Shown here one piece after another: positions 2 through 13,167 of a DNA stretch of 32,291 nucleotides (positions are counted from its first letter, which is position 1; each line of letters opens with the position of its first letter). Source of the stretch: a virus; IMG/VR virus record IMGVR_UViG_3300032086_001690, positions 1 through 32,291 of that record. The stretch is one strand, 5' to 3'. The notes under the pieces are model-generated. The model did no database searches. It worked only from the letters and a program-made list of their open reading frames with translations, and had not been told where the DNA came from. The translations under genes and the position numbers were made by a program.

Positions 2-412
2 GGCAGAGCAATAAATGATATAGGAATAAATAAGTACTATATCTATCCCAATGGGGCAGAAATGCCCTTTTGCCCTGCAAAAGTAAAACCTTTTCAAAAC
101 AGAGTTATATTGGTGGAGGGTATCTTTGATGCTCTTAACCTTTGGGACAAAGGTCTCAAAAATACAGTGTGCACATTTGGTACACAACAAGTGAATTGGG
201 TCAAACTAAGTCTACTAAAGCTACAAGGCGTTCAAGGTTTAGATATTATGTTTGACGGGGATGAGGCGGGTAGACAAGCTGCTGAACAAGCAAAAAGTTT
301 AGCAGAACAATTAGAAATGAGTGCTAGAGTAGTAAAACTAAGAGATAATATAGACCCTGGCAATTTAACAAAAGCAGAAATAGAAAGATTAAAGGAAAAA
401 TTATATGGCTAA
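2..412 (+). CDS. DNA primase, C-terminal TOPRIM part (5' truncated)
   Basis: The frame is open from the window edge, so this is the 3' part of a longer gene. The first ATG (position 62) lies inside the domain and is unlikely to be the true start. The residues left form a TOPRIM fold. The glutamate motif is VILVEGIFDAL and the acidic metal-binding motif is DIMFDGDEAG, the DxD type used by DnaG and T7 gp4 primases to bind catalytic Mg2+. The protein ends about 50 residues after the DxD motif, so there is no fused helicase domain as in T7 gp4; a replicative helicase, if phage-coded, must be a separate gene upstream. It overlaps the polymerase start by 8 bp, so the two are probably co-translated. 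An OLD-type or topoisomerase TOPRIM is possible but less likely beside polA. Confidence 0.8.
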   Translation, partial: GRAINDIGINKYYIYPNGAEMPFCPAKVKPFQNRVILVEGIFDALNLWDKGLKNTVCTFGTQQVNWVKLSLLKLQGVQGLDIMFDGDEAGRQAAEQAKSLAEQLEMSARVVKLRDNIDPGNLTKAEIERLKEKLYG

Positions 413-2672
413 CGTAGCAATAATAGAAAAAACAATGACAAGTACTAATTATGATAAGTACTTTGATTTTGACTATGACAGGTATGCCCTGTGTTCAGAT
501 AGTTCAAAACAGAAAATATTAAAAAGAGATGTTGATATTGAAATCGATATCGACTCGTACGATTGGCTCATTCTAGTAGGTTCAGAGCCTTTCAAAAACT
601 TTACAAGAAAGACATCAATAACAGAGTACAATGGAAAAATTGTTGATGATAAGTTTTTAGGTTTAATTAACCCTGCTATGATAAAGTTCAGACCAGAAGC
701 AAAGAAGTCGTTCGAGGAAGCAATTGAGAGTATATCGGGGTACATAAGCGGAGATTTAAAACAAATGACGCTAGGCGAAAACCAAGTATATGGTATACAA
801 GAGAGTGAAGAACTGCATAAGTATTTGCAAGAAGCGTTAGACCACCCAAACAATTATATAGCACTTGACTCTGAGACATCAGCATTATATTGCCGTGATG
901 GTTATATGCTTGGTTTCTCTATGTCATACAAAAAAGAACATGGTGTCTATGTAGACACAGAATGTATAGATGATAAAGCAGAACAAATGATGCAAGAATT
1001 ATTTGATAAGAAACGAGTTGTATTTCATAACAGTAAGTTTGATTTACAATGGTTTGAGTATCATTTCAACTTTAAGTTCCCAAACTTTGAAGACACAATG
1101 CTAATGCACTATATGTTTGACGAAAACCCAGGAACACATGGACTAAAACAACTAGCCATGAATCATACTCCATACGGAGACTATGAGGCAGAACTTGATA
1201 ACTATATACAAGAGTACAAGAAGAAAACAGGAATATTAAAAGCAGACTTTAGTTATTCTATGATTCCATTTGAAACAATGAAATACTATGCTGCAATGGA
1301 TGCCGTAGTTACCTTCTTGTTATTTGAAAAGTTTGAAGCAGCAATATTGAAAAATGATAAATTATACTGGGTATATAAAAATCTTCTTATTGAAGGAGTA
1401 AGATTCCTTAAAGATGTAGAATCTAACGGTGTTCCTTTTGACCTTGCTCGACTAGAGTTTGGACAGAAAAGGATGCAGGAAGATATTGATGCAGCTGTAG
1501 CTGCTCTTGAATCGTTCCCTGAGGTTAGAGCATATCAAAAAGCCAAAGGAGGTATGTTTAATCCAAATAGTACAGTACAACTTCGTGAGTTACTATTTGA
1601 TTACATAGGCTTAGCCCCAACGGGTAAGAAAACGGGTACTGGTGCTCATAGCACAGACGCAGAAGTTCTTGGGCAACTTGCCGAAGAACACGAAGTACCT
1701 AAACACATTTTAGAAATCAGACAAAAGGTTAAAATTAAGAATACATATCTTGATAAAATTATACCGAATCTCGATAGAGATGGCAGACTGCGCACTGGTT
1801 TCAACCTTCACGGTACTACATCAGGCCGACTATCTAGTAGTGGTAAACTAAATATGCAACAGCTTCCGCGAGACAATCCCACAGTTAAGGGTTGTATCAA
1901 GGCAAAGGCGGGTCATAAAATAGTTGCCATGGACTTAACTACTGCAGAAGTATATTGTGCAGCTGTGTTAGCAAATGATAAAGGTCTGATGAATGTGTTT
2001 AAGTCTGGAGGAAACTTCCATAGTACAATTGCTAAGCAAGTATTCAAACTTCCATGTGAAGTTGAAGAAGTCGCAGAACTCTACGGAGACAAACGACAAC
2101 AAGCTAAAGCTGTTACATTTGGTATTATGTATGGAGCAGGCCCGAAAAAGATTAGTGAACAAGTTACTAAAGATAGTGGTAGTGAGTTTACTATGCAAGA
2201 CGCTCAATTGGTTATCAAAGACTACTTTGAAGCGTTTCCCAAACTGCGAGAGTGGTTAAATAATATGCAGAAGTTTATTCAAGCTAATGGTTTTATTTAT
2301 TCTCATTTCGGAAGAAAGAGAAGATTACCAAATGTCTTTTCACAAGACAAGGGAATCGCTGCTCACGAAGTAAGGTCAGGAGTAAATGCACTAGTACAGT
2401 CTGTATCATCCGACATCAATCTGCTTGGTGCAATCGATACTCAGAAGTATATTCGCAAGACTGGTATGAAAGCAAAGATCTTTGCTCTAGTGCATGACTC
2501 CATTTTAGCAGAAGTGCCCGAAGATGAAGTAGAACTATATAGTAAGAAACTGAAAGAGTTTATCCAAAAGGATAGAGGACTGTCAATACCTGGCGCTCCA
2601 GTTGGTTGTGACTTTGATGTTGCAGACGACTACTCTCTTGGTAAGTTTGAAAAGTTATATGGACTTGTCTAG
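405..2672 (+). CDS. DNA polymerase family A with 3'-5' exonuclease
   Basis: This is a replicative PolA-type polymerase of 755 residues. The exonuclease occupies about residues 145-310: exo I D155-x-E157, exo II N209 to D213, exo III Y295 to D299. The polymerase domain follows from about residue 440: a TSGRLSSSG/LPRD segment, motif A at D510 with E515, motif B R564-x3-K568-x3-F572-G-x2-YG, and motif C H697-D698. The residue matching E. coli Pol I position 762 is Phe (F572), not Tyr as in T7. Two departures are visible. Motif C reads HDS where most family A enzymes have HDE, and the Arg that usually follows the motif A Glu is Tyr517. There is no 5' nuclease domain; that activity is a separate gene at 16541. 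The start overlaps the primase end by 8 bp. Confidence 0.95.
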   Translation: MANVAIIEKTMTSTNYDKYFDFDYDRYALCSDSSKQKILKRDVDIEIDIDSYDWLILVGSEPFKNFTRKTSITEYNGKIVDDKFLGLINPAMIKFRPEAKKSFEEAIESISGYISGDLKQMTLGENQVYGIQESEELHKYLQEALDHPNNYIALDSETSALYCRDGYMLGFSMSYKKEHGVYVDTECIDDKAEQMMQELFDKKRVVFHNSKFDLQWFEYHFNFKFPNFEDTMLMHYMFDENPGTHGLKQLAMNHTPYGDYEAELDNYIQEYKKKTGILKADFSYSMIPFETMKYYAAMDAVVTFLLFEKFEAAILKNDKLYWVYKNLLIEGVRFLKDVESNGVPFDLARLEFGQKRMQEDIDAAVAALESFPEVRAYQKAKGGMFNPNSTVQLRELLFDYIGLAPTGKKTGTGAHSTDAEVLGQLAEEHEVPKHILEIRQKVKIKNTYLDKIIPNLDRDGRLRTGFNLHGTTSGRLSSSGKLNMQQLPRDNPTVKGCIKAKAGHKIVAMDLTTAEVYCAAVLANDKGLMNVFKSGGNFHSTIAKQVFKLPCEVEEVAELYGDKRQQAKAVTFGIMYGAGPKKISEQVTKDSGSEFTMQDAQLVIKDYFEAFPKLREWLNNMQKFIQANGFIYSHFGRKRRLPNVFSQDKGIAAHEVRSGVNALVQSVSSDINLLGAIDTQKYIRKTGMKAKIFALVHDSILAEVPEDEVELYSKKLKEFIQKDRGLSIPGAPVGCDFDVADDYSLGKFEKLYGLV

Positions 2673-3231
2673 GGTAGAGCGACGTAAAGAAGCGTTAGCA
2701 GGTAAAATAGTTGGAGATTTTGTATTTATACATATTCCAAAGACTGGGGGTAGAAGTATAACACAAAACTGTTTTCATAATCAGTTTGGTCAGTGTGCAG
2801 ATTGGTACAAATATAGAGGGTATAACAAGTTTATAACTCAAGTAAGAAATCCTTATGATAGATGGGAAAGTATGTATTGGCACTTAAAAAGACACAAAGA
2901 GTTTGAATATGATTTTAATAATTGGACTATAAAAACAATAATAGTACAGTGTCAAGGTGCTGTAAATATGAATAAATACTTTGATAGAAAGGGTAAGGAT
3001 GAATTAAAGTCCTTATATATGATAATGGGTAAACCTATGTGGTATTGGATTGATAGAGAAGTTGAAGTTCATAAATTAGAAGAAGAAACTATATGGAAAC
3101 GACTAGGTATAAAAGAAAGAAAAAGAAATGTAGGACGTAATAGAAAAGAAGTAACCTGGTCTGATGAAGCACAGAGTATGTTTACTAGATACTACGAAAG
3201 AGATTTTAAGCAGTTTGGATATGATATTTGA
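2659..3231 (+). CDS. Sulfotransferase-like protein 1
   Basis: This 190-residue protein has the two hallmarks of PAPS-dependent sulfotransferases. The 5'-phosphosulfate loop near the N-terminus is FIHIPKTGGRS (residues 23-33), and the 3'-phosphate-binding segment is QVRNPYDRWESMY (residues 61-73). Such enzymes move sulfate from PAPS to hydroxyl or amino groups of sugars, lipids or proteins. At 190 residues it is short for the family, and the acceptor cannot be predicted. I chose the ATG at 2659, 14 bp before the polymerase stop; the upstream in-frame ATG (2602) would add residues deep inside the polymerase gene. It overlaps the second sulfotransferase by 11 bp. Function is inferred from motifs only. 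Confidence 0.75.
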   Translation: MDLSRVERRKEALAGKIVGDFVFIHIPKTGGRSITQNCFHNQFGQCADWYKYRGYNKFITQVRNPYDRWESMYWHLKRHKEFEYDFNNWTIKTIIVQCQGAVNMNKYFDRKGKDELKSLYMIMGKPMWYWIDREVEVHKLEEETIWKRLGIKERKRNVGRNRKEVTWSDEAQSMFTRYYERDFKQFGYDI

Positions 3232-3859
3232 AAACGATAAAATAATATTTATACATATACCAAAGTGTGGTGGTAGCTCTGTAACTAGAGCTTATAAGCG
3301 ATACCGCTTACCTAAAGATAAGAAAATAGCAATGAAAACATGGACTCCTGGTTTAAAATCAGTTTCAAAATGGAAGACAAATGAAGCAGAGTGGGTAGAA
3401 GTAAATAATATGCACGCTACTTATGATAGATATAAACCTTTCTATCCTGACTATCAATATATAACTCAAATTAGATACCCTATGGCAAGATGGGAAAGTG
3501 TTTATAAGCACTTGTGTAAGCTGGAGCTAGTAAATACGGAGTTCTCAGAGTGGACAGAAAGAGCTTCTCAATACTTACCAAAAGGTCAGTTTTGGAGACT
3601 GTTTGATAATATAGATATATACCTAGATAGAACTCATGCCCATAATAGTGAAATAGAGATTTTGTTTTTACCTCAATGGACTTGGATAAGAGAAGAAGTA
3701 AAAGTATTTAAACTAGAAGAAGGAACTATATGGAAGTGGTTGAATCTTCCTGAAAGAGTAGATAATGTATCTCCTACACAAGAGTGTATATGGTCAGAGA
3801 AAGCAGAAAACTTTGTAAAAGAGTGGTGGAGAAAAGATTTTGAATATTATGAAAAATAA
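3221..3859 (+). CDS. Sulfotransferase-like protein 2
   Basis: This is a 212-residue relative of the preceding gene. It has a PAPS-binding loop FIHIPKCGGSS (residues 10-20) and a second motif QIRYPMARWESVY. The C-terminal parts are also similar: both carry a short segment of the type V(K)LEEGTIWKWL, so the pair looks like a duplication that has diverged. The ATG at 3221 overlaps the first sulfotransferase's stop by 11 bp, and the next gene overlaps this one by 11 bp in the same way. Two adjacent copies suggest two acceptor sites, two acceptors or a heteromer; the sequence does not decide. The substrate is unknown. Confidence 0.75.
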   Translation: MIFENDKIIFIHIPKCGGSSVTRAYKRYRLPKDKKIAMKTWTPGLKSVSKWKTNEAEWVEVNNMHATYDRYKPFYPDYQYITQIRYPMARWESVYKHLCKLELVNTEFSEWTERASQYLPKGQFWRLFDNIDIYLDRTHAHNSEIEILFLPQWTWIREEVKVFKLEEGTIWKWLNLPERVDNVSPTQECIWSEKAENFVKEWWRKDFEYYEK

Positions 3860-4520
3860 AGATACTGTAGTATGCGTAAGTGGTGGCACTGAATCTACTG
3901 CTGCTTTATTGTATGCAGTAAATAAAGGTATGAAAGTTGTAGGTCTACACTTAGCAGATAAGTCAGACCCTAAGAAAATATTTGAAGCATCTAAACAAGC
4001 TGCTGAAAAACAATGTGAGTTATTAGGAGTTCCTTTAGTTACAACTGTATGTGATATTCCTAAAGATAATCCAGGACTCTTTGCTGTATATCAGTATCAA
4101 TCAGCTATATTACAACTCATAAAAGGAAACAAGATGAGAGTAAAAAATATAGTATGGGGTTCTAGTGCAGAAGATAGTTTTAGACAAAGAGTACAATTAA
4201 GATATCCTAACAGAATACTAGCAGTAGATGCCGAAGATGTTTTAGAAGTTACACAAGTATCTTTAAACTCAGTTATGAATCTACCTGTCAATATATTTCC
4301 TTTTGAGTGGATGACAAAAGCAGAAATAATATCATTACTTGTAAGAAGTAACAAAGAGTTATATGATTTAATATTTACTTGTAATAATCCTACAGATGAT
4401 TTAAAAATGTGTGGTAGATGTAAAAAGTGTGCCGAAAGATGGTTTTCAGAACAAACAGCTAAACAAGCTAAACTAAGAGTACAGGAGAGTGTTAATTATG
4501 TCAATAGTTACGATAGTTAA
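3849..4520 (+). CDS. QueC-like PP-loop ATPase
   Basis: This 223-residue protein begins with a PP-loop (VCVSGGTESTAALL), the AMP-forming loop of the N-type ATP pyrophosphatases. It ends with four cysteines (FTCNN, then CGRCKKC before AERW), the zinc-site arrangement of QueC, 7-cyano-7-deazaguanine synthase. A PFEWMTKAEI segment also matches the QueC pattern. QueC makes preQ0 from 7-carboxy-7-deazaguanine, ATP and ammonia, and phages use this pathway for 7-deazaguanine DNA modification. Two cautions apply: the usual SGGxDS aspartate is Glu here, and no QueD, QueE, FolE or DpdA-like gene is visible. It could be a QueC-fold enzyme with another substrate. ATG 3849 is preferred over TTG 3840. Confidence 0.7.
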   Translation: MKNKDTVVCVSGGTESTAALLYAVNKGMKVVGLHLADKSDPKKIFEASKQAAEKQCELLGVPLVTTVCDIPKDNPGLFAVYQYQSAILQLIKGNKMRVKNIVWGSSAEDSFRQRVQLRYPNRILAVDAEDVLEVTQVSLNSVMNLPVNIFPFEWMTKAEIISLLVRSNKELYDLIFTCNNPTDDLKMCGRCKKCAERWFSEQTAKQAKLRVQESVNYVNSYDS

Positions 4521-4992
4521 ACCTTATGAAGAATTAACAACTGATGAACTTTATAGAGTCATACAGTTGAGAATACAAGGATTTATAGTAAGAAATCAGG
4601 TCTGTTATCAAGACTTAGAAGCACATTATGATAAAAATCAATATTATATGATGTCATATGATACAGTTCTAGGTATAGAGCCACAACTAATGATAGGCGT
4701 TAATGCTTTGTGCACAAATAAAGTATTTACAGGAGATGATGGTACAGAGTATCGTTATCCCGCATTTCGTAGACAAGCATGGGAAGATGCTTACAAAGGG
4801 GGTGCATCAACTTATGACTTAACAACAGGGCGTGAGTTTTGCAAAAATAATTTAGGTAGTCCTAACATGATGCTAGAGATTACATATGAGAAGGGCAGAC
4901 AAGTCTTTCTCGACTTTGGATGTAGAGAAATAGGAACTAATATTGACCCAGCGGGTAGAAAAAATTGGGTGTTTGTTTATGAAGAATCTTAA
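4498..4992 (+). CDS. ElaA-like GNAT family N-acetyltransferase
   Basis: The 164-residue protein opens with a stretch resembling ElaA-type GNAT proteins: LTTDELYRVIQLR, then a FIVRNQVCYQDLE segment that parallels the family's 'valine-glutamine-proline-tyrosine-aspartate-leucine-aspartate' region. GNAT enzymes acetylate amines using acetyl-CoA. The acetyl-CoA pyrophosphate loop (Q/RxxGxG/A) is not obvious, so activity is uncertain. The C-terminal half (DFGCREIGTN) fits the late GNAT region. An AGGAG Shine-Dalgarno at 4483-4487 supports ATG 4498. The gene overlaps the QueC-like gene by 23 bp and the next small gene by 14 bp. The acceptor is unknown. Confidence 0.5.
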   Translation: MSIVTIVKPYEELTTDELYRVIQLRIQGFIVRNQVCYQDLEAHYDKNQYYMMSYDTVLGIEPQLMIGVNALCTNKVFTGDDGTEYRYPAFRRQAWEDAYKGGASTYDLTTGREFCKNNLGSPNMMLEITYEKGRQVFLDFGCREIGTNIDPAGRKNWVFVYEES

Positions 4993-5188
4993 AGAAAAAA
5001 TACAGATTAGACTAGACAAAATAGAGATGCTTATGAACGAGGATTTTCATTTGAATAATCCTGACGAAGTATACGATCAAACACTAGATGTTAGTAAGTT
5101 TTGGTCAATATTATCAGAAGAAGATAGAGATTTTATTCAAGGAGTACAATCATCTATTGAAGAGGGTTGGTCTTGGAAAGACAAGTGA
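4979..5188 (+). CDS. Small hypothetical protein (69 aa)
   Basis: I do not recognise this 69-residue protein. It is charged and probably mainly helical, starts MKNLKEKIQIRL, is rich in Asp/Glu in the middle, and ends GWSWKDK. No membrane segment or metal motif is visible. The start overlaps the acetyltransferase end by 14 bp and the stop is 7 bp before the next ATG, so it is in the same transcription unit. A helper or adaptor for a cassette enzyme is possible, but nothing in the sequence shows it. Confidence 0.6.
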   Translation: MKNLKEKIQIRLDKIEMLMNEDFHLNNPDEVYDQTLDVSKFWSILSEEDRDFIQGVQSSIEEGWSWKDK

Positions 5189-5195
5189 AGAGAAT

Positions 5196-5702
5196 ATGAA
5201 ATTAGACAAACTATGGAAAACAATAAGTTATCCGATTGATAAAGAGTATTGGGTAAAAGAAATTAGAGAAGGCAAAAACTTTCAATGGGAAGTAGACCTA
5301 AATAATTACGCAAAGGCTGATAGTAATATATGGCATACAGACGTTACCCAAAAGTATTTAGACGCAATAGCACAATATAAAGTTCCTTTTTCTAAAAAGA
5401 TGCATTGTAGACTTTTCTTTGTAAAAGTTATGGCGGAAGACTTTTATGCTAAATATCCTGTATTGGGTCAGACTGGAATCATTTGGAATATTACGAATAT
5501 AAATAAAGAATCTAGACATAAAATAGTAGGCTCAAACAATGAAGGAAGTATTGCACTAGAGGTAAAGACTGCTAAACCACTATTAGTAGATATGAATAGT
5601 TTAAAAACTATAACAAGAACACAGAGACGAGATTTAGTATTAAGTTTTGATGAACCTTTTGATAAAGTATTAGAGAGATGGGATGAGTATAACAAGTTAT
5701 AA
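5196..5702 (+). CDS. Degenerate oxygenase-like protein (168 aa)
   Basis: No function is assigned with certainty. Residues 72-165 can be aligned by eye with the next gene's 2OG-Fe(II)-oxygenase-like core: FFVKVMAEDF with KIIKLTETIP, IIWNITN with AINYLLN, and LVLSFDEPFDKVLERWD with LKISIFDETYEEICKKLD. At the place of the neighbour's HTD metal motif it has AKY, and no histidine occurs after residue 108, so the distal iron ligand is also absent. A WHTD tetrapeptide is present, but earlier (residues 46-49) and out of register. It may be a non-catalytic paralogue or a partner subunit. GTGAAGAG precedes ATG 5196; the stop overlaps the next gene by 20 bp. Confidence 0.55.
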   Translation: MKLDKLWKTISYPIDKEYWVKEIREGKNFQWEVDLNNYAKADSNIWHTDVTQKYLDAIAQYKVPFSKKMHCRLFFVKVMAEDFYAKYPVLGQTGIIWNITNINKESRHKIVGSNNEGSIALEVKTAKPLLVDMNSLKTITRTQRRDLVLSFDEPFDKVLERWDEYNKL

Positions 5703-6078
5703 TTATAAATGGAAGCAATATAAACATCACGGTAAAGAAACTATAGAGGGGTATACTTTTACTAGAATACCTCCAGTTCAGTTTAACGGTAGATGGAATA
5801 TGAAAATAATAAAGTTAACTGAAACTATACCTTGGCATACTGACTGGGACACTAAATGTGCTATAAATTACTTACTAAATGATGATTTAGAAAGTGCAGG
5901 GCATATTGAAATAGGAGAAAAAGCCCAAAAGTTTCAGTATAGAATGGCAGTTATTGATACTACTAAAAGACATAGAGCTGTAGTGTATGATAAACCGAGA
6001 AAAATATTAAAGATAAGTATTTTTGATGAAACTTATGAGGAAATATGCAAAAAATTAGATTCCCTATTTACGTCATAA
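5683..6078 (+). CDS. Putative 2OG-Fe(II) oxygenase-like protein
   Basis: This 131-residue protein has the ligand order of a double-stranded beta-helix 2-oxoglutarate/Fe(II) dioxygenase: H52-T-D54 (IPWHTDWD), a strand pair ending in INYLLN, then H97 in TKRHRAVV and R106 nine residues on, followed by an ILKISIF strand. In this superfamily HxD...H binds iron and the Arg holds 2-oxoglutarate; the enzymes usually hydroxylate a C-H bond. It is short for the family but in the range of small phage members. ATG 5683 lies 20 bp inside the previous gene, its likely paralogue. The substrate is unknown; it could act on protein, sugar or nucleotide. Confidence 0.55.
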   Translation: MSITSYNYKWKQYKHHGKETIEGYTFTRIPPVQFNGRWNMKIIKLTETIPWHTDWDTKCAINYLLNDDLESAGHIEIGEKAQKFQYRMAVIDTTKRHRAVVYDKPRKILKISIFDETYEEICKKLDSLFTS

Positions 6079-6515
6079 ATGAAGAGCCAGAAGAAATAGA
6101 TGGACTGGTTATTATTGGTGACCAAGTAGTAGATGATAAAAATATGGATGGTAGTAGTATAGGAATAAGAAGGCTGCAAACACCAATGAAAAGTATATAT
6201 CCTTTGCGTTATCAAATAGATGACGAAGTAGGAATGATGAAGCATAGGGGAAAGCATTTTATAGATACCAATGGAGTTTATTGGTATGATGAAAAAACAA
6301 CAACAGCTCAATTAAAATATCTTAAAATAAGAAAAGTTGAGAAGAAAGATATTGCATCAGTAATTTGGTTAAAGGATTGTCCTTTTCCATTTATTGAGAG
6401 TAGACCACCAATAGCGGGGTCTAGTTGGGCAGGAGTATTATATAAACAAGGTATTCCATGGAAAATATGGGAATATTGCGAGGATAAAAAGAAAGACACA
6501 TGGAGGAAAATCTAA
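6045..6515 (+). CDS. Conserved-looking hypothetical phage protein (156 aa)
   Basis: The 156-residue product has no catalytic motif I can name. The C-terminal half is distinctive: WLKDCPFPFIESRPP, then GSSWAGVLY, PWKIWEYCE and KKDTWRKI. It is rich in Trp, Pro and aromatic residues, and I have the impression of similar sequences in marine T4-like phages, which I cannot verify here. The start overlaps the oxygenase-like gene by 34 bp. Its end contains the GGAGG ribosome-binding site (6502-6506) of the radical SAM gene, so the two are tied at translation level. Confidence 0.55.
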   Translation: MQKIRFPIYVINEEPEEIDGLVIIGDQVVDDKNMDGSSIGIRRLQTPMKSIYPLRYQIDDEVGMMKHRGKHFIDTNGVYWYDEKTTTAQLKYLKIRKVEKKDIASVIWLKDCPFPFIESRPPIAGSSWAGVLYKQGIPWKIWEYCEDKKKDTWRKI

Positions 6516-6519
6516 AAGC

Positions 6520-7296
6520 ATGGCGCAAGCTCTCTGGTTAATTAATATAGATGTAACAGGACTCTGCAATAAGACTTGTAATTATTGCCCAAGGTCTAAA
6601 GGATATCCAAATATTAATGAACATATGCCTTATGAAGTATTTGATAACTTTATTACTTATTTAGATAAAATTAAATATAATGGTTGGATATGTTGGAGTG
6701 GTAGAGGAGAAAATAGTTTACACCCTCGTGCAGAAGATATGGTAAACAGACTGCATACTCCTTGGAGATTATATAAAACTAGAATATTAACTAATGGGTA
6801 TAAGTTTGATAAAAGAAAGCACTGGTTTGCATTATTTGATAAAGCAGTAATAAATACTTATGAAAGTGAAGAAGAAATGGAAAGAAGAAAAGCAATACTT
6901 CCAGCAAAAGAACATAGGTATTGGGATCAAACTGTTGAACCCGAAGAATGGGAAGTAACTCCTTTGCAAGTTCAGAATAGAAATGACATATATAATAATG
7001 TTATAGCAAGTGATAAAACTTTAAAAGAGCCGTGTATTTTACCCATGACTAAAGCGTGGATACATTGGACAGGAGATATAAGTCTGTGCAGTAATGATTG
7101 GACAGATACAAATATTTTTGGAAATATTAAAGAAGATAACTTCTTTGAAGTCTGGAATAATCATCCAGTACTAAATGAAATGAGACAAGAGCTCATAAAA
7201 GGGAATAGATATAAATATACTGTCTGTTCTATATGTAATAGAACACACAACAAGTATGACAAAAGAAGGTATAAAAAATGGATATCGAGAAACTAA
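6520..7296 (+). CDS. Radical SAM protein with SPASM-like C-terminus
   Basis: The 258-residue protein has C16-x3-C20-x2-C23 (GLCNKTCNYCPR), which binds the [4Fe-4S] cluster that cleaves S-adenosylmethionine. A glycine-rich WSGRGE segment follows (SAM-binding region). Near the end, CILPMTK, SLCSNDW, FGNIKE with FFEVWNN, and CSIC resemble SPASM/twitch regions that hold auxiliary iron-sulfur clusters. SPASM enzymes mature ribosomal peptides, act as anaerobic sulfatase-maturing enzymes, or modify sugars and cofactors. The spacing is not that of QueE. A GGAGG site lies 13 bp before the ATG. The next small gene overlaps its end by 19 bp. The substrate is unknown. Confidence 0.8.
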   Translation: MAQALWLINIDVTGLCNKTCNYCPRSKGYPNINEHMPYEVFDNFITYLDKIKYNGWICWSGRGENSLHPRAEDMVNRLHTPWRLYKTRILTNGYKFDKRKHWFALFDKAVINTYESEEEMERRKAILPAKEHRYWDQTVEPEEWEVTPLQVQNRNDIYNNVIASDKTLKEPCILPMTKAWIHWTGDISLCSNDWTDTNIFGNIKEDNFFEVWNNHPVLNEMRQELIKGNRYKYTVCSICNRTHNKYDKRRYKKWISRN

Positions 7297-7514
7297 AACA
7301 AAAACTAGAAAAGCACATAGTATTAATTACATTTCAAAGTCTGAAATCTAATAATGTATATGATAGAGAATATACTCTTTCTGACTTGCACTGTGATATA
7401 CCCATTCATATAAGGAAACAGAATGGGGATAAACTTATATGCTATGATGTGGAGTTTCAAAAATGGGAAGATTTAGAAGTAGATTCAATTATGGGATATA
7501 AAGTAGTAGAATAA
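7278..7514 (+). CDS. Small DUF2693/SH3-barrel-like protein (78 aa)
   Basis: This 78-residue protein resembles the DUF2693 type of small beta-barrel: an early VLITFQSLKSN strand, a YTLSDL region, a central acidic/aromatic ICYDVEFQKWEDL, and a final VDSIMGYKV. The DUF2693 pattern typically reads DxxxxxWRSFRxDSI. The molecular role of that family is not known to me. It is sandwiched between the radical SAM gene (19 bp overlap) and the amidotransferase (TAATG junction). It is less likely a modified peptide substrate, since it lacks a leader/core look and is not Cys-, Ser- or Thr-rich at the end. Confidence 0.5.
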   Translation: MDIEKLKQKLEKHIVLITFQSLKSNNVYDREYTLSDLHCDIPIHIRKQNGDKLICYDVEFQKWEDLEVDSIMGYKVVE

Positions 7515-9022
7515 TGTGTGGATTTGTAGTAACAACTGATATAGATAATATACAGAATATGACAGAAAGACAGGCTTTCCGAGGCCCTGACGGGTGTAGA
7601 TATGCTAGAAATAAGGATATTGCTATGGGTCACGCCTTGCTTGATATAAGAGGAGTACAAGGCTGGCAACCAGTACAAACAAAAAATAATAATATGTTTG
7701 TATTTAATGGTGAAGCATATGATTCTAATGTTGATAATGATACGCTATTTTTAGCAAATGGATTTGAAACATATGGACTGAGATTTTTATCTTCTACTGA
7801 TTGGCATGGCTCATTCGTACATTATAATACGGAAACAAGAGAGCTTACCGCAGTAAGAGACCATTTTGGTGCTAAACCTTTATGGATATATAAAAAGGGC
7901 GAAGATATTACTATTTCTACAAGTTTGAAAAGTTTTACTAAAAAGAAATATAATCACTCTCATACTCAACAGTACAAGAGGCAAAAACAATGGTTTAAAA
8001 GAGAGTCACCATATAAAGATATTATAAAGGTAATGCCTGGAGAAATATTTAAGTATAATTTTGCTACAAAAAAACTAATGAAGTCAAAAAACTTATGGGA
8101 TATTCATTTGATGCAAACATTCTATCCGCAAGTTCCTAAAGATTTTGAAGAAAGATTAGTAAATAATATTAGAAAACTTGCACAAAGTAAACAAAAAACA
8201 GGATTATTTTTAAGTGGTGGATTAGATAGTACAATGGTTTTATCTGTAGTTAAAGATATGGATATAGACTTAGAAGTATTTACTTGTGCATATGGTCAAG
8301 AAAAAACTGAGTTTGACTTTCAAGGTATGAGAGACGAATCTAAAATGGCAATACAAACTTGCAAAGAATGGAATATACCTATTAATGTAGTAACTCTGCC
8401 TTATAATTATGTAGAACACTACGGTAGAATGTGGATGAATAATACTCATTTTGCATGGTCAGACCATAACAGAAGAGCTCCTCGATATGCCTTATGTCAG
8501 GCTGCTAAAGCTAAAGGATGTAAGGTTATACTTACAGGAGATAGTGCAGATGAGATGTTTGGTGGTTATACACATCATGATAAAAGATTAGACAAGAAGT
8601 ATACAGATTGGTCTATAAAAATTAATCCAGACATACCAAAATGTTATGGAGATGACTTTATAAACAATTCTTTATTTATAGATATGTTTTGTACTTCCGA
8701 ACAAAATATATTAGCAACAGACCAAACTTGTGGAATGTTTGGCTTAGAGTCAAGACCTGTATTTCTTGGACAAAACTTTGTAAAATATGTATTTGCTATC
8801 GCTGGTAAATGGAAACTAGCACACAATGAAAAGTTTGGAAAACGTTGGATGATTCAAAAATATCTTCTAAGAGAAGTTTGTGGACATAGATTGCCCGCTC
8901 ATGTAAGAAATAGAAACTCAAAAATTGGATGGTCTAGTCCTTGGAATAATAATGTACCTAAATATAGTAATCCTTGGGTAGAACAAGATATATTACATAT
9001 GCAGGAAATAGAAAAAGAATGA
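7514..9022 (+). CDS. Asparagine synthetase B-type amidotransferase
   Basis: The 502-residue protein has both domains of glutamine-hydrolysing asparagine synthetase. The N-terminal class II glutaminase has the nucleophile Cys2 (MCGF), RGPDG (23-27) and NGE (65-67). The synthetase domain has the PP-loop LFLSGGLDST (231-240) and LTGDSADEMFGGY (340-352; usual form GDGADELFGGY). It releases ammonia from glutamine and amidates an adenylated carboxylate. Besides aspartate, relatives amidate uronic-acid sugars in O-antigens or act in antibiotic synthesis. In this cassette I favour a biosynthetic role over simple Asn supply. It starts by TAATG coupling and ends by ATGA coupling with the cytidylyltransferase. 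Confidence 0.9.
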   Translation: MCGFVVTTDIDNIQNMTERQAFRGPDGCRYARNKDIAMGHALLDIRGVQGWQPVQTKNNNMFVFNGEAYDSNVDNDTLFLANGFETYGLRFLSSTDWHGSFVHYNTETRELTAVRDHFGAKPLWIYKKGEDITISTSLKSFTKKKYNHSHTQQYKRQKQWFKRESPYKDIIKVMPGEIFKYNFATKKLMKSKNLWDIHLMQTFYPQVPKDFEERLVNNIRKLAQSKQKTGLFLSGGLDSTMVLSVVKDMDIDLEVFTCAYGQEKTEFDFQGMRDESKMAIQTCKEWNIPINVVTLPYNYVEHYGRMWMNNTHFAWSDHNRRAPRYALCQAAKAKGCKVILTGDSADEMFGGYTHHDKRLDKKYTDWSIKINPDIPKCYGDDFINNSLFIDMFCTSEQNILATDQTCGMFGLESRPVFLGQNFVKYVFAIAGKWKLAHNEKFGKRWMIQKYLLREVCGHRLPAHVRNRNSKIGWSSPWNNNVPKYSNPWVEQDILHMQEIEKE

Positions 9023-9420
9023 TAGGATTTACTTGTGGAGCATTTGATTTGCTACACGCAGGACATATTGTAATGCTAAAAGAAGCGAAAGCTAATTGTG
9101 ATTACTTAATAGTTGGGTTGCAGACTGACCCAAGCATTGATAGACAAGAGAAAAATCAACCTGTACAATCAGTCTATGAAAGATTTACACAATTAAATGC
9201 GGTAAAGTATATAGATGAAATAATACCGTATGACACAGAACAAAGTTTAATCGACCTGTTACTATCAACTAAAATAGATGTTAGATTTGTAGGTGACGAT
9301 TATAGAGAAAAATATTTTACAGGACAAGAACTAGATATACCTGTACATTACACAAATAGAAAACACTCTTTTTCTAGTAGAGGTTTAAGGAATAGGGTAA
9401 ATGAAAGCAGTTCTAAGTAA
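9019..9420 (+). CDS. Cytidylyltransferase (TagD/GCT-like)
   Basis: The 133-residue protein carries the nucleotidyltransferase HxGH motif at residues 13-16 (GAFDLLHAGH), an ERFTQLNAVKYIDEIIPY segment, and a C-terminal HSFSSRGLR in the place of the family's second signature (RTxGxSTS). The length matches glycerol-3-phosphate cytidylyltransferase, which makes CDP-glycerol from CTP; related enzymes make CDP-ethanolamine or activate other phospho-sugars. It would supply an activated building block for a glycan or teichoic-acid-like polymer. ATG 9019 makes an ATGA overlap with the amidotransferase. It is the last gene of the accessory cassette, with a 20 bp overlap into the helicase. Confidence 0.8.
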   Translation: MIGFTCGAFDLLHAGHIVMLKEAKANCDYLIVGLQTDPSIDRQEKNQPVQSVYERFTQLNAVKYIDEIIPYDTEQSLIDLLLSTKIDVRFVGDDYREKYFTGQELDIPVHYTNRKHSFSSRGLRNRVNESSSK

Positions 9421-10681
9421 CAGAATATATTTAGAAGTAAATACAGAAACGCATAATAAAATCGAAAAGGAGTTGACTTATACACTAGCCCCTCGCATGC
9501 CGTCAGACCCACCTATCGTATTCAAAACAATACGATTTATTCGCGAGGGGTTGGTTTCTATACCTATCGGAAGAGAGGATTTAATCCCATCCGATTACGA
9601 GATAATCGATAAGCGTGTAACATCGCCAGTCGAACATGAAAAGTTTAAGTTTGAATTACGACCAAGCCAGAAACGAGTACATGACGAGGTAAATGACAAT
9701 GCTATAATTAACGCATGGGTAAGTTGGGGAAAGACATTTACAGGTTTAGCTATCGCAGCGAAGCTTGGTCAGAAAACATTAGTTGTTACCCACACAACTA
9801 ACTTAAGAAATCAGTGGGAAAAAGAAGTACAAAAATGCTTTGGAATTAAACCAGGCAGGATAGGTAGTGGAGACTTCAAAATTGATGCTCCTATCGTGGT
9901 CGGGAATATTCAGAGTTTATACAGAAAAATGGACGACATAAAACAAGTTTTTGGAACTGTGATTTTAGATGAAATGCATCACGTTAGTAGTCCAACTTTT
10001 ACACGAATAGTAGACGAAATGCCTGCTCGTTATAAGGTTGGTTTGACAGGAACATTGGAACGAAAAGATGGACGTCATGTGGTGTTTAGAGATTACTTTG
10101 GAAACAATGTATTCAAACCACCAAAAGAAAACTATCTTATACCTAGGATTGATATTGTTCAGTCTGATATAAGATTTTTAGATGGCGCTTATACTCCTTG
10201 GGCAGAACGCATAAATCATTTGGCAACAAATGAAGAATATGTCCATAGTGTGAGTATGATTGCTGCAAAATATGCTGCAGAAGGACACAAGGTATTAGTA
10301 GTATCAGATAGAGTCGCTTTTTTAAAAGCGTGTGCTATACTTTGTGGAGATAAAGCAGTACATATAACAGGAGATATGGGTTTTGAAGAAAGAGAAGATA
10401 CTATGAATATGATTAAGAAAGATAAGAATATTCTGTTTGGTACACAGTCAATTTTTTCGGAAGGCATATCATTAAATGAATTGAGTTGTTTAGTATTAGG
10501 TACACCAATAAATAATGAGCCTTTACTCACGCAGCTTATTGGTAGAGTAATACGAGATAAAAAAGGTAAACAACAACCTGTTGTTATCGATATTCATCTC
10601 AAAGGAAAGACAGCAGCTCGTCAAGCTAACGCTAGAATGGGCTACTACATAAAACAAGATTATGAGGTAAACATATTATGA
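9401..10681 (+). CDS. SF2 DNA helicase (UvsW/XPB-like)
   Basis: This 426-residue superfamily 2 helicase has ordered motifs: LRPSQ (86-90), Walker A ending GKT (110-112), VVTHTTNL (Ia), the DExH box ILDEMHH (188-194), LTGT (215-218), a GTQSIFSEGISL region, and motif VI QLIGRVIRD. Walker A reads WVSWGKT, so the usual first Gly is Ser, as in some phage UvsW-like enzymes. These helicases remodel branched DNA and stalled forks and help recombination-dependent replication. An AAGGA lies just upstream of ATG 9401. The first third of the gene contains a nested inverted repeat (9484-9555) and is less A+T-rich than the cassette before it. Confidence 0.88.
   Translation: MKAVLSNRIYLEVNTETHNKIEKELTYTLAPRMPSDPPIVFKTIRFIREGLVSIPIGREDLIPSDYEIIDKRVTSPVEHEKFKFELRPSQKRVHDEVNDNAIINAWVSWGKTFTGLAIAAKLGQKTLVVTHTTNLRNQWEKEVQKCFGIKPGRIGSGDFKIDAPIVVGNIQSLYRKMDDIKQVFGTVILDEMHHVSSPTFTRIVDEMPARYKVGLTGTLERKDGRHVVFRDYFGNNVFKPPKENYLIPRIDIVQSDIRFLDGAYTPWAERINHLATNEEYVHSVSMIAAKYAAEGHKVLVVSDRVAFLKACAILCGDKAVHITGDMGFEEREDTMNMIKKDKNILFGTQSIFSEGISLNELSCLVLGTPINNEPLLTQLIGRVIRDKKGKQQPVVIDIHLKGKTAARQANARMGYYIKQDYEVNIL
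9484..9555. repeat. Nested inverted repeat within helicase gene
   Basis: CCCCTCGC (9489-9496) is exactly complementary to GCGAGGGG (9543-9550). As RNA the stem extends outward with A-U, C-G and G-U pairs to 9484/9555, giving 13 pairs. Inside lies a perfect 8 bp hairpin, ATCGTATT (9515-9522), loop CAAAAC, AATACGAT (9529-9536). G+C-rich arms are unusual in this A+T-rich sequence. It could be an mRNA structure, a cruciform or a binding site; it lies in coding sequence, so chance codon use is not excluded. Confidence 0.5.
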
Positions 10682-11595
10682 CCGAAGAAGGTGGAAGAAA
10701 AATAGAACTGAATATAGAAAAGATTAGGGAAATGAAACCTTATATTGCTACTCCAATGTATGGAGGTATGTGTACAGGACTGTATACTAAATGTTTGATG
10801 GATATGACAGCAGTATTTATGAATCATGGTGTACAATCACAGATTTATTATTTATTTAATGAATCCTTAGTTACTAGAGCTAGAAATTATTGTGTGGCAA
10901 ACTTTTTAAAGTCAGACGCAACACATTTATTTTTTATTGATAGTGATATATCTTGGAAAGCAATGGATGTAATGTATATGTTACATTTAATTGCTGAAGC
11001 ACAAGATACAGACGAACCTTTAAGAATATTTACAGGTTTGTACCCAAAGAAAACTATTGCTTGGGAAAAAGTTATGATGGCTGCGAAAAGCGGACTGTAT
11101 GACGATGACCCATCAAGATTATCTTTGATTGCTGGAGATATGGTATTTAATCCAGACCATGAAGCTTATCCAACTGGACAAGCACCAGTATTTGAACCTG
11201 TAAAGGTTAGAGAAGCTGGAACTGGATTTATGATTATAGAAAGAAGTGTTTTTGAAGAATATGAAGAAGCATATCCTCAGTACAAGTACACTCCAGACCA
11301 CCTTAGGGAAGGAGACTTTAAGCCAGGAGAGCAAATCATGGCATACTTTGACTGTATAATCAACGAACAGAATAGATATCTGAGTGAAGATTATATGTTC
11401 TGTGAAAATGTAAGGAAAATAGGGATAGATGTTTGGTCACTACCCATGGTTGAACTATTACATACTGGAACTTACACATTCCAAGGCAACTTAGTGCAGA
11501 TGGCTGCAGCAGATGTTCATGCAACTATAGACCCTGAATACGCTAAAAAACTTGCTGATGGGAAAAATCAAGAGCAGGTCAAAAATAGTTCTTGA
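10678..11595 (+). CDS. GT-A type glycosyltransferase-like protein
   Basis: The 305-residue protein looks like a phage GT-A glycosyltransferase. It has an ESLVTRARNYCVANFL segment, the metal-binding DxD in HLFFIDSDISW, then FTGLYPKK, AGTGFMIIERSVFEE and a C-terminal YLSEDYMFCENVRKIG, the order seen in phage family-2-like transferases. Such enzymes move a sugar from a nucleotide sugar to DNA, protein or a glycan. It starts with an ATGA overlap with the helicase. No membrane segment is evident, so it is probably cytoplasmic. Its 3' end overlaps the -35 element of the promoter at 11592. The acceptor is unknown. Confidence 0.75.
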   Translation: MTEEGGRKIELNIEKIREMKPYIATPMYGGMCTGLYTKCLMDMTAVFMNHGVQSQIYYLFNESLVTRARNYCVANFLKSDATHLFFIDSDISWKAMDVMYMLHLIAEAQDTDEPLRIFTGLYPKKTIAWEKVMMAAKSGLYDDDPSRLSLIAGDMVFNPDHEAYPTGQAPVFEPVKVREAGTGFMIIERSVFEEYEEAYPQYKYTPDHLREGDFKPGEQIMAYFDCIINEQNRYLSEDYMFCENVRKIGIDVWSLPMVELLHTGTYTFQGNLVQMAAADVHATIDPEYAKKLADGKNQEQVKNSS

Positions 11596-12016: not shown

Positions 12017-12649
12017 ATGGCAATTGGATTCAACCAAACCAAGGGCTCAGCCCAAAAAGAAAAAATCGAAACCTATAACTATGCAGGTAAAGAAGACCAT
12101 CATGTAAGACTTGTTGGTGACTTATTACCTAGATACGTCTATTGGATTAAAGGAGAAAATGGCAAAAACATTCCTATGGAGTGTTTATCATTTGATAGAG
12201 ATTCTGAAACCTTTAACAACAAAGAACATGACCATGTTCGCGACTATTATCCAGACCTTAAATGTGGATGGTCTTATGCCGTTCAGTGTATAGATTACGC
12301 TGATAAAACTGTTAAAGTTCTTAATCTCAAAAGAAAACTATTCGACCAAGTACTAGTAGCTATGGAAGAGTTGGGAGACCCAACCGATCCAGTTACAGGC
12401 TACGACATTCATTTCAAAAGAAAGAAGACTGGCCCACAAGTGTTTAATGTCGAGTATCAATTACAAGTTCTTAAGTGTAAACCAAGAGAACTTGAGGACT
12501 GGGAGAAAGATTTAGTGACTACTATAAAGTCAATGGATGATGTTCTTCCAAGACCAACTGCTGATGCGCAGTTAGAACTATTAAGAAGACTAAACGATTC
12601 TGGTGGTGAAACACCTGAGGAAGTCTCAGAGGAGTTTGACGTATCATGA
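12017..12649 (+). CDS. Single-stranded DNA-binding protein
   Basis: The 210-residue protein has the pattern of phage ssDNA-binding proteins. The N-terminus is small and basic/Gly-rich (MAIGFNQTKG), an OB-like core follows with aromatic and basic strands (PRYVYWIKG, KVLNLKRKLFDQ), then GDPTDPVTGYDIHFKRK and a YQLQVLK strand, and a strongly acidic C-terminal tail (ETPEEVSEEFDVS). The tail normally recruits polymerase and helicase partners. It would coat ssDNA for replication and recombination. Start ATG 12017 was preferred to an upstream in-frame ATG inside the previous gene. It sits just after the consensus promoter, fitting a protein needed in bulk. Confidence 0.75.
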   Translation: MAIGFNQTKGSAQKEKIETYNYAGKEDHHVRLVGDLLPRYVYWIKGENGKNIPMECLSFDRDSETFNNKEHDHVRDYYPDLKCGWSYAVQCIDYADKTVKVLNLKRKLFDQVLVAMEELGDPTDPVTGYDIHFKRKKTGPQVFNVEYQLQVLKCKPRELEDWEKDLVTTIKSMDDVLPRPTADAQLELLRRLNDSGGETPEEVSEEFDVS

Positions 12650-13167
12650 TTGGGGTAGGTGAGAAGTTTCCTGCATTTACTTTGCAGGGTGTTAATGCTA
12701 ATAATGAGTTTGTAGAGGTTTCTGTAACAGAACACTATGACCCACTAAAGCATGATTATACAGTAATCTACTTCTATCCTAAAGACTTTACTTTCATATG
12801 CCCAACAGAAATTGCGGGAATGGATATGTTAGTAAGTGAAGCTAATGTAATCGGTATTAGTGGAGATAATGAGTTCTGTAAGTTAGCTTGGAAAAAAGAT
12901 AATGAACTCATTAGAGATATTAAACACTCACTAGCTGCCGACTGTGGACTAAGACTTGCAGAAGACCTAGGAATAGTCGATGAAGAAGCAGGTGTATGTT
13001 ACAGAGCAACTTACATTATTGATAGAAATGATGTAGTACAGCATGTATCAGTAAATGCACTAGACACAGGCAGAAATGCCAATGAAGTTCTTAGAACTTT
13101 ACAAGCTATCAAAGCTGGTGGTTTAACAGGTTGTGAATGGCAACCAGGAGAAGATTTCGTAGCATGA
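12646..13167 (+). CDS. Peroxiredoxin (AhpC/Prx1 type, 2-Cys)
   Basis: The 173-residue protein has the peroxidatic motif P45-x3-T49-x2-C52 (PKDFTFICPTE) and a likely resolving Cys163 in the C-terminal LTGCEWQPGEDF. Length and end match AhpC-type 2-Cys peroxiredoxins, which reduce hydrogen peroxide and organic peroxides. The final Cys-Glu-Trp-Gln-Pro-Gly motif is like that of AhpC linked to AhpD-type reductants; no AhpD or AhpF is seen, so the host or the nearby glutaredoxin may reduce it. ATGA coupling to the ssDNA-binding protein and to gp47 places it firmly in the replication operon. It looks like a virus-borne host-type metabolic gene that protects host or phage components during infection. 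Confidence 0.93.
   Translation: MIGVGEKFPAFTLQGVNANNEFVEVSVTEHYDPLKHDYTVIYFYPKDFTFICPTEIAGMDMLVSEANVIGISGDNEFCKLAWKKDNELIRDIKHSLAADCGLRLAEDLGIVDEEAGVCYRATYIIDRNDVVQHVSVNALDTGRNANEVLRTLQAIKAGGLTGCEWQPGEDFVA

Follow-up and report, generated by a model that had tools for sequence, protein, structure and literature searches.

A probable sugar-tailoring insertion of modular build in the replication module of uncultivated T5-like phages

Cultured phages of the T5 family (Demerecviridae) keep their replication genes in the order ligase A, ligase B, D5, DnaB, primase, DNA polymerase, a gene for about 165 amino acids, and D10 helicase, and their gap between polymerase and helicase measures only about 0.5-0.8 kb. 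The same order is found in the lineage of the DNA analyzed here, a 32,291-base contig of an uncultivated virus (IMG/VR record IMGVR_UViG_3300032086_001690, positions 1 to 32,291; referred to as the window), but here the gaps are islands of 3.0-7.5 kb, and that of the window, on the left part of the contig, holds a cassette of eleven additional genes.

For the enzymes of this cassette, described systems offer partial parallels. BtrN belongs to butirosin biosynthesis and is a twitch-type radical S-adenosylmethionine (SAM) enzyme that oxidizes 2-deoxy-scyllo-inosamine, an aminocyclitol, to the ketone (excerpts of PMC9012708). The radical SAM protein of the cassette matches BtrN almost from end to end, and all seven cluster cysteines as well as an Asn-Arg pair are aligned, but it occurs in a phage, has a QueC-like partner, and is accompanied by no recognized butirosin genes. 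Pelagibacter phage HTVC008M (NC_020484) carries adjacent genes (gp155-gp164) for a radical SAM protein, a carbamoyltransferase, an NAD-synthase-type PP-loop synthetase, a methyltransferase, a glycosyltransferase, and a 2-oxoglutarate (2OG) oxygenase; among its 13 proteins searched with profiles of the window's relatives, the carbamoyltransferase matched at 2e-56 and the methyltransferase at 3e-11. However, HTVC008M is a T4-like phage, its cluster lies outside the polymerase-helicase gap and includes an extra UDP-glucose dehydrogenase-like enzyme, the radical SAM (2e-6) and PP-loop matches are weak, and the proteins compared included no AsnB-type glutamine amidotransferase (GATase), QueC-like protein, or cytidylyltransferase. 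The "BtrN protein" of Campylobacter phage CP20 and its kin is a phage radical SAM protein of the same broad type (24-25% identity), but it is remote, and no AsnB-like, QueC-like, or sulfotransferase gene is annotated beside it. Systems for 7-deazaguanine DNA modification share the QueC-type fold with the cassette; in contrast to them, the cassette protein falls below the NCBIfam QueC cut-off (28.5 vs 150.3 bits), and the family of tRNA-guanine transglycosylase (TGT) was found in 0/18 records. Phage clusters of sugar-type tailoring genes are thus already known, for example in HTVC008M. The make-up, location, and module structure of the present cassette were not found described in the open-licence PubMed Central (PMC) literature (5.39 million papers), in which neither a paper on this cassette nor one joining "BtrN" with "phage" was found.

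Judged from the comparisons below, the cassette is a real, modular, and widespread insertion that probably serves in sugar tailoring. We favor the reading, with a probability of roughly 0.5, that the eleven cargo genes belong to a pathway of modular build for tailoring a sugar (or cyclitol), whose end point would most likely be a glycan of the virion or the host surface. This reading is preferred because the BtrN match includes all cluster cysteines and BtrN acts on an aminocyclitol, and because radical SAM and QueC-like genes are paired at two genomic sites, with a fork in the QueC tree (support 94). Further reasons are a carbamoyltransferase in nearly all relatives that reach its site, islands in which an APS kinase accompanies a sulfotransferase, a GT29-like gene, the intact motifs of the AsnB-like, QueC-like, and sulfotransferase proteins, the weak proximity of the sulfotransferase profile to a glycan sulfotransferase, and the clustering of comparable tailoring enzymes in the cultured phage HTVC008M.

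Position and gene content of the cassette

The left part of the window is a T5-type replication module with a primase fragment, DNA polymerase, helicase, SSB, SbcD, SbcC, a RusA-like resolvase, exonuclease, and ribonucleotide reductase. The first-pass annotation of the window had described a modification cassette wedged between polymerase and helicase of an otherwise ordinary replication module, and both genes and order were borne out. It had counted eleven genes; 12 are present, all on the plus strand and with neighbor overlaps of -7 to +34 nt, and eleven of these are indeed cargo, but the twelfth, g08, is a resident gene of the replication module. The features, with ATG starts chosen by us, are the following.

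405-2672, plus strand: DNA polymerase I, left flank (phrog_17, 2e-145; 44-46% identity to Demerecviridae polymerases)
2659-3231, plus strand: sulfotransferase-like protein 1 (Sulfotransfer_2, 23.6 bits, cut-off 22; HIPKTGG and R.P..R..S conserved across the aligned family)
3221-3859, plus strand: sulfotransferase-like protein 2 (Sulfotransfer_2, 25.4 bits, cut-off 22; best PDB match of the family profile heparan sulfate 6-O-sulfotransferase, 0.0012)
3849-4520, plus strand: QueC-like PP-loop ATPase, paired with the radical SAM protein (QueC, 3.8e-11; four zinc-type cysteines invariant in 16/16 rows)
4498-4992, plus strand: ElaA-like GNAT acetyltransferase (family profile against PDB 1XEB, PA0115, 6e-9, and 5Z6N, ElaA, 8.4e-5; no Pfam hit)
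4979-5188, plus strand: small protein without Pfam hit (same family in 3/39 islands)
5196-5702, plus strand: g06, by eye a relative of g07 lacking the metal triad (no Pfam match; profile comparison with the g07 family negative)
5683-6078, plus strand: g07, 2OG-Fe(II)-oxygenase-like (fold of a family member similar to prolyl hydroxylases; HxD...H in 12/12 family rows)
6045-6515, plus strand: g08, resident gene of the polymerase-helicase gap, not cargo (profile match at the same place in 6/7 cultured Demerecviridae stretches)
6520-7296, plus strand: BtrN-like radical SAM protein, twitch type by similarity (PDB BtrN, 3.1e-13 as single sequence, 8.3e-30 as profile)
7278-7514, plus strand: g10, small protein with weak WYL_2 (SH3-barrel) similarity below the cut-off (39/39 islands)
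7514-9022, plus strand: AsnB-like glutamine-dependent amidotransferase (Asn_synthase, 3e-33, plus GATase; 39/39 islands)
9019-9420, plus strand: cytidylyltransferase-like enzyme, ECT/TagD-like (CTP_transf_like, 1e-15)
9401-10681, plus strand: D10/UvsW-type helicase, right flank (phrog_16, 1e-66; 34-41% identity to cultured Demerecviridae helicases)

As the entire block recurs in four other contigs with 85-100% protein identity per gene, the cassette is not a product of chance. Its enzyme classes are group-adding or group-activating, as the first-pass annotation had claimed, and Pfam agrees with the calls of two Sulfotransfer_2 proteins, QueC, Asn_synthase with GATase, and CTP_transf_like. The GNAT call stands on its family profile in spite of the missing Pfam hit, and of the proposed pair of oxygenases, g07 is backed by fold and metal triad but g06 by neither Pfam nor profile. 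For g10, the WYL_2 E-values were all under the cut-off in strength (0.087 in the window, 0.005 and 0.012 in two relatives). Among cultured phage records, homologues were found of the cytidylyltransferase (139 records), the carbamoyltransferase of the relatives (143), the protein encoded at 10678 (63), the AsnB-like enzyme (7 records, 22-26% identity), and the radical SAM protein (8 records, 22-25%), and none at 1e-5 of g08, the QueC-like protein, or sulfotransferase 2.

The resident nature of g08 emerged from a comparison with seven cultured Demerecviridae stretches comprising 428 open reading frames (ORFs). A single gene of about 165 amino acids lies between polymerase and helicase in six of the seven, with an additional 37-aa ORF in Vibrio phage Gary, and the corresponding stretch of Aeromonas phage TS3 is not annotated. 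The g08 profile matched this gap gene in 6/7 stretches (7e-11 to 5e-5) and gave no match at 0.01 in phage TS3, and nine other profiles (g10, AsnB-like, cytidylyltransferase, GNAT, QueC-like, g07 oxygenase, sulfotransferase, radical SAM, and carbamoyltransferase) had 0 matches in the 428 ORFs. The presence of g08 in the cultured gap together with the silence of the nine other profiles argues that the marine lineage acquired genes on both sides of a resident g08. As g08 is a T5-family gene by profile, it was ruled out as a pathway enzyme. Its predicted model is weak, with a predicted local distance difference test (pLDDT) score of 69.9 and values below 50 for residues 1-55; it matched nothing in the PDB at E 0.001, and the model search returned three viral proteins, one of them from Escherichia phage OSYSP (8e-4).

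In a farther T5-like clade (L264:4924-7507), the same polymerase-g08-helicase site carries other cargo, namely a P-loop ATPase (PhoH-like by eye), a radical SAM protein of a second type, and a short-chain dehydrogenase/reductase (SDR).

The BtrN-like protein and its QueC-like partner

The first-pass annotation had named a radical SAM-SPASM protein. A Radical_SAM/SPASM hit is indeed present, although the Radical_SAM Pfam score alone is marginally below the Pfam cut-off, but the nearest relative is BtrN, with 53 of 231 aligned residues identical and the match improving from the single sequence to a profile of six rows. The CX3CX2C motif of the radical cluster is present, its residues C16, C20, and C23 align with C16, C20, and C23 of BtrN, and N153-R154 align with N151-R152. 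C172, C190, C236, and C239, which are invariant in the six rows, align with BtrN C169, C187, C232, and C235, and we take these residues and their BtrN counterparts to be the ligands of the auxiliary cluster. In excerpts of PMC9012708, the radical cluster residues of BtrN are given as C16, C20, and C23 and the ligands of its auxiliary cluster as four cysteines; for two-cluster SPASM proteins, excerpts of PMC6231123 describe a seven-cysteine motif. The last 120 residues contain four cysteines in the window protein and four or five in its relatives. By these comparisons, the protein is closest to BtrN and is assigned to the twitch type with one auxiliary cluster rather than to the two-cluster SPASM proteins, and it likely performs the oxidation of a ring alcohol. 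A search for bacterial homologues in 84,980 genomes found only three distant loci, none with useful context.

The BtrN likeness bears also on a different end product, a small molecule or aminocyclitol-like metabolite, which would be a diffusible or nucleotide-linked phage compound with a possible effect on the host or on competitors. Such small molecules are commonly tailored by carbamoyl-, acetyl-, and amidotransferases, and we counted this in its favor. The origin of BtrN in butirosin biosynthesis (excerpts of PMC9012708) points in the same direction. However, no scaffold-making enzyme or exporter was recognized among the proteins scanned, and the GT29-like gene and the CDP-type activation point to a glycoconjugate, so that we regard a free metabolite as unlikely.

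The strongest indication that cassette genes of the sugar-tailoring reading act together comes from the radical SAM gene and the QueC-like gene. Of 386 radical SAM relatives, the best 80 were kept, and 13 loci (L264-L268, L270-L277), which had a QueC-like hit in 0/13 and an SDR-family hit in 11/13 cases, were excluded from the pairing count as a second subfamily, leaving 67 loci. In these relatives, the radical SAM gene occupies one of two sites, either the polymerase-helicase island or the interval between ligase A and a carbamoyltransferase gene. A QueC-like gene accompanied it in 60/67 loci, the other 7 being cut by the contig end on that side, and after removal of redundancy in 29/32 loci, the other 3 again being cut. 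Where the pair occupies the ligase site, its genes overlap in 48/48 cases (the overlaps are upper bounds, as the most upstream ORF start was used), and where it is in the island, 1.3-2.7 kb separate them in 11/11. In the QueC tree, the copies associated with radical SAM genes are grouped on the same side of a fork (support 94), though long branches weaken this. Such relocation as a pair is better evidence for linkage than co-occurrence within islands because the latter mostly reflects descent, and pathway unity is supported for this pair and plausible for the other cassette genes.

The QueC-like protein has Glu in its PP-loop where QueC has Asp (16/16 rows), and C181, C191, C194, and C197 are invariant in the 16 rows, which corresponds to a zinc-type site of four cysteines. 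We presume that the PP-loop with Asp (SGGxDS) and the four-cysteine zinc site are the hallmarks of QueC. A role in deazaguanine synthesis was rejected, as the protein missed the NCBIfam QueC equivalog cut-off (28.5 against 150.3 bits), carries Glu for Asp, and is accompanied by no TGT in the 18 records.

In phage CP20 (L291:2753-6771), the "BtrN protein" gene lies three genes downstream of an annotated glycine amidinotransferase, possibly another phage pathway of the aminocyclitol type.

Constant and variable parts of the island

For the comparison of islands, 80 of 191 polymerase relatives and 80 of 95 helicase relatives were kept, in each case the best ones. Both genes were present in 90 loci including the window, which gave 39 non-redundant islands; these, like the 67 radical SAM loci, are nearest relatives and not a census. 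As the ORF caller was weighted toward the plus strand, strand counts were not used. The islands span 3,017-7,461 bases (median 4,583). The genes g08, g10, and the AsnB-like gene occur in 39/39 islands each, with the cytidylyltransferase (22), GNAT (20), the QueC-like gene (14), the g07-type oxygenase (12), and the sulfotransferase (10) as variable genes, further joined by the oxygenase families F9 (10), F12 (8), and F15 (6), SDR (8), APS kinase (7), GT10 (7), and a methyltransferase (3). The smallest islands consist of F6, g08, g10, the AsnB-like gene, and the cytidylyltransferase. Immediately left of g08, 31/39 islands have one of four families (F6 in 14, the g07-type F7 in 12, F17 in 4, and one single), and the remaining 8 have GNAT. 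Profile comparisons link F6 with F7 (1e-8), F7 with the single (3e-8), and F17 with the single (1.5e-5), and F7 with F17 weakly; only F7 has kept the metal triad, and the related F6 rows lack it.

The first-pass annotation had proposed to check whether the genes are gained or lost as a block in relatives. As a whole, the cassette is not: the AsnB-like gene and g10 make up a small constant part, and other parts come, go, or sit elsewhere. On the tree of polymerase and helicase, few changes are needed for most genes (QueC-like 2, GNAT 2, sulfotransferase 5, cytidylyltransferase 4, APS kinase 3, GT10 6), so that shared presence mostly reflects descent. Island co-occurrence was therefore discarded as proof of a pathway: Fisher tests were strong, as for the sulfotransferase with the QueC-like gene (10/10 islands, p 1.6e-6, ignoring kinship), but they are non-independent when the tree needs only 2-6 changes for most genes. 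The claim of a biosynthetic pathway, which had been drawn from gene order and tight coupling, is thus supported where the radical SAM and QueC-like genes are linked at two sites, but loses the support of much of the inherited island co-occurrence.

These patterns also matter for the view that the gap is a permissive insertion site whose genes have separate jobs. Very different cargo occupies the same site in the farther clade of L264, cytochrome c and peptide deformylase occur in single islands, and GT10 requires six changes on the tree, all of which would fit unlinked cargo. The invariable AsnB-like gene and g10, the pairing of radical SAM and QueC-like genes at two sites, and the single-copy cytidylyltransferase found in one or the other site make such a collection of unrelated genes improbable. 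The cytidylyltransferase lies in the island of G002, G003, G004, G007, G008, G012, G014, and the window and in the ligase interval of G001, never twice, and is absent from the available sequence of G010, G011, and G013.

As to the cargo of individual relatives, one island (L081:12159-13302) includes an FkbM-type methyltransferase and a peptide deformylase, and cytochrome c-like proteins are encoded at L148:6208-6654 and L166:640-1071, one of them within a polymerase-helicase island.

Chemistry, end product, and genes outside the island

In the sugar-tailoring pathway that we favor, the BtrN-like protein would generate a ketone from a ring hydroxyl, carboxylates would be turned into amides (or a nitrile) by the QueC-like ATPase and the AsnB-like enzyme, the GNAT would acetylate an amine, the two sulfotransferases would transfer sulfate from 3'-phosphoadenosine 5'-phosphosulfate (PAPS), the 2OG oxygenase would hydroxylate, and the cytidylyltransferase would turn a phosphorylated polyol, amine, or sugar into a CDP-linked donor. 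A carbamoyltransferase, known from the relatives, and glycosyltransferases would complete and attach the product, and other parts of the pathway would be located in other gaps of the same genomes. The individual reactions, their shared product, and the acceptor are inferred from sequence, whereas the gene identities by homology, the inserted position, the constant and variable parts, and the linkage of radical SAM and QueC-like genes are observed.

In the sulfotransferases, HIP..GG and R.P..R..S, presumably the PAPS-binding motifs, are invariant in 12 rows, and heparan sulfate 6-O-sulfotransferase, their weak nearest match, is a glycan sulfotransferase. An adenosine 5'-phosphosulfate (APS) kinase with a fused nucleotidyltransferase-like domain (6.6e-12) is encoded in 7/39 islands, in 6/7 with a sulfotransferase in the same locus (inside the island or upstream of it by 2-7 kb); in the seventh, L119, the available upstream sequence is just 1.3 kb long, and sulfotransferases also occur without APS kinase. 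In the AsnB-like protein, Cys2, NGE, SGGxDS, Glu347, and Lys449, which we take to be the active GATase and synthetase residues, are invariant in 35 aligned rows of the 39 islands (g08 rows were aligned for 37/39), and the NCBIfam equivalog of asparagine synthase B was missed (160 bits, cut-off 267.1). Nearest to the cytidylyltransferase in the PDB are ethanolamine-phosphate cytidylyltransferase (ECT; 6e-24) and glycerol-3-phosphate cytidylyltransferase (8e-15); it exceeded the superfamily cut-off and fell short of the NCBIfam equivalogs TagD (71.1/165.4 bits) and HldE (78.6/181.5). In Stenotrophomonas phage DLP6 (L290:15047-19938), a GNAT and a Sulfotransfer_2 protein are encoded closely upstream of the DNA polymerase.

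The g07 family was modeled with the protein of a relative (L148:4784-5251, pLDDT 90.7) and not with the window protein itself, and this model, a double-stranded beta-helix fold, fits prolyl hydroxylases best (Z 12.4, root mean square deviation 2.8 over 142 residues), one of which acts on EF-Tu. Together with peptides being substrates of some twitch enzymes (excerpts of PMC6231123), this would suit a modification in which oxygenase, radical SAM, and amide-forming enzymes act on a phage or host protein. As the match of the radical SAM protein is to an alcohol dehydrogenase of small molecules and not to a peptide enzyme, and as neither a precursor peptide nor a recognition domain was seen, we judge a protein target to be highly improbable.

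Hypermodified DNA, which the first-pass annotation had listed beside glycans and small molecules, would require a decorated nucleobase, for example by 2OG hydroxylation of the base, glycosylation by the 10678 product, and then amidation, carbamoylation, or sulfation. The location inside a replication module and the many 2OG oxygenases would fit, as would phage DLP6, which has a 10678 homologue by its clamp gene and GNAT and sulfotransferase genes by its DNA polymerase. However, the thymidylate-synthase family (PF00303; controls positive in 9/14 genomes), C5-methyltransferase (10/14), and the TGT/DpdA-type family (PF01702; 14/14) were each found in 0/18 records, one of which is 105 kb long and several of which are fragments. 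A Tet/JBP hidden Markov model was uninformative on the records, its control being silent, and a direct scan of the 2OG proteins yielded no Tet_JBP match. As three base-enzyme families were not found in the records while their controls responded, known routes of DNA modification, though not all routes, are unlikely; a modified base is disfavored as the product and a glycan favored.

Several observations weigh against the sugar-tailoring pathway. Its genes lie among replication genes, as DNA-modifying genes might; the co-occurrence within islands is mostly inheritance; the best fold neighbors of the oxygenase act on protein; and the function of twitch and SPASM proteins is hard to predict from sequence, according to excerpts of PMC6231123. 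Moreover, the records G010 and G011 have the QueC-like gene and no radical SAM hit, G013 has the ligase interval without carbamoyltransferase, radical SAM, or cytidylyltransferase, and UDP-glucose dehydrogenase was found in 0/18 records.

A bolder version of this reading, which we consider tentative and rather doubtful, is a combinatorial sugar-tailoring system in which a constant core (the AsnB-like enzyme, usually with carbamoyltransferase and cytidylyltransferase) would be combined with swappable modules, such as the butirosin-type radical SAM dehydrogenase with the QueC-like ATPase, or PAPS sulfotransferases with their own APS kinase. The outcome might be a lineage-specific glycan bearing sulfate, amide, carbamoyl, and keto groups, of a type undescribed from a virus and varied as bacteria vary their O-antigens, which would mask the virion or block rival phages. 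Phage-encoded modifications of glycans and bases determine whether hosts and rivals recognize phage DNA and particles. If true, widespread uncultivated T5-like phages would carry swap-in sugar chemistry in which radical SAM oxidation is joined to sulfation, amidation, and carbamoylation. The radical SAM protein and its QueC-like partner are small, recur as a pair, and are amenable to heterologous expression, which turns a gene block into a concrete biochemical question.

Outside the island, the carbamoyltransferase (5e-46) was detected in 12/18 records, which are 12/13 of those reaching its site. The five records that end before it (G000, G014, G015, G016, and G017) extend 0.4 to about 5 kb upstream of the polymerase, and about 6.2 kb would be needed. 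A DUF6071 protein follows the carbamoyltransferase, and further 2OG-type proteins (DUF6445, 2OG-FeII_Oxy_3, JmjC_2) are encoded upstream, in 9/9 records with this region. A sulfotransferase-like protein of only about 118 aa with a weak Pfam match is encoded in 9/9 records that cover its region (L164:12891-13244; G012 16870-17217).

Glycosyltransferases encoded later in the window had been suggested as users of the products. The one near 20939 is GT29-like, but 10678 has only weak glycosyltransferase matches and 20310 none, and searches of the PDB with the latter two families gave no match.

10678-11595, plus strand: possible glycosyltransferase after the helicase (phrog_1574, unknown function, 5e-51; phrog_34859, glycosyltransferase, 2.7e-4)
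20310-20969, plus strand: conserved gene, a glycosyltransferase only by eye (phrog_28018, unknown function; no PDB or Pfam match)
20900-21586, plus strand: GT29 (sialyltransferase)-like protein (Glyco_transf_29, 2.7e-11)

The GT29-like gene adjoins tail-fiber genes in the window, and its family was detected in 9/18 records. Amid the replication genes of the window, an AhpC/TSA peroxiredoxin-like gene is present at 12646-13167 (2e-23). The 105-kb relative G001 carries a curli-type secretion set with CsgG, CsgF, FecR, and a CHASE2 adenylate cyclase (L163:4001-9257). As pelagiphages are reported to have the same kind of set including FecR and adenylate cyclase (excerpts of PMC9599517), this set hints at a SAR11-like host.

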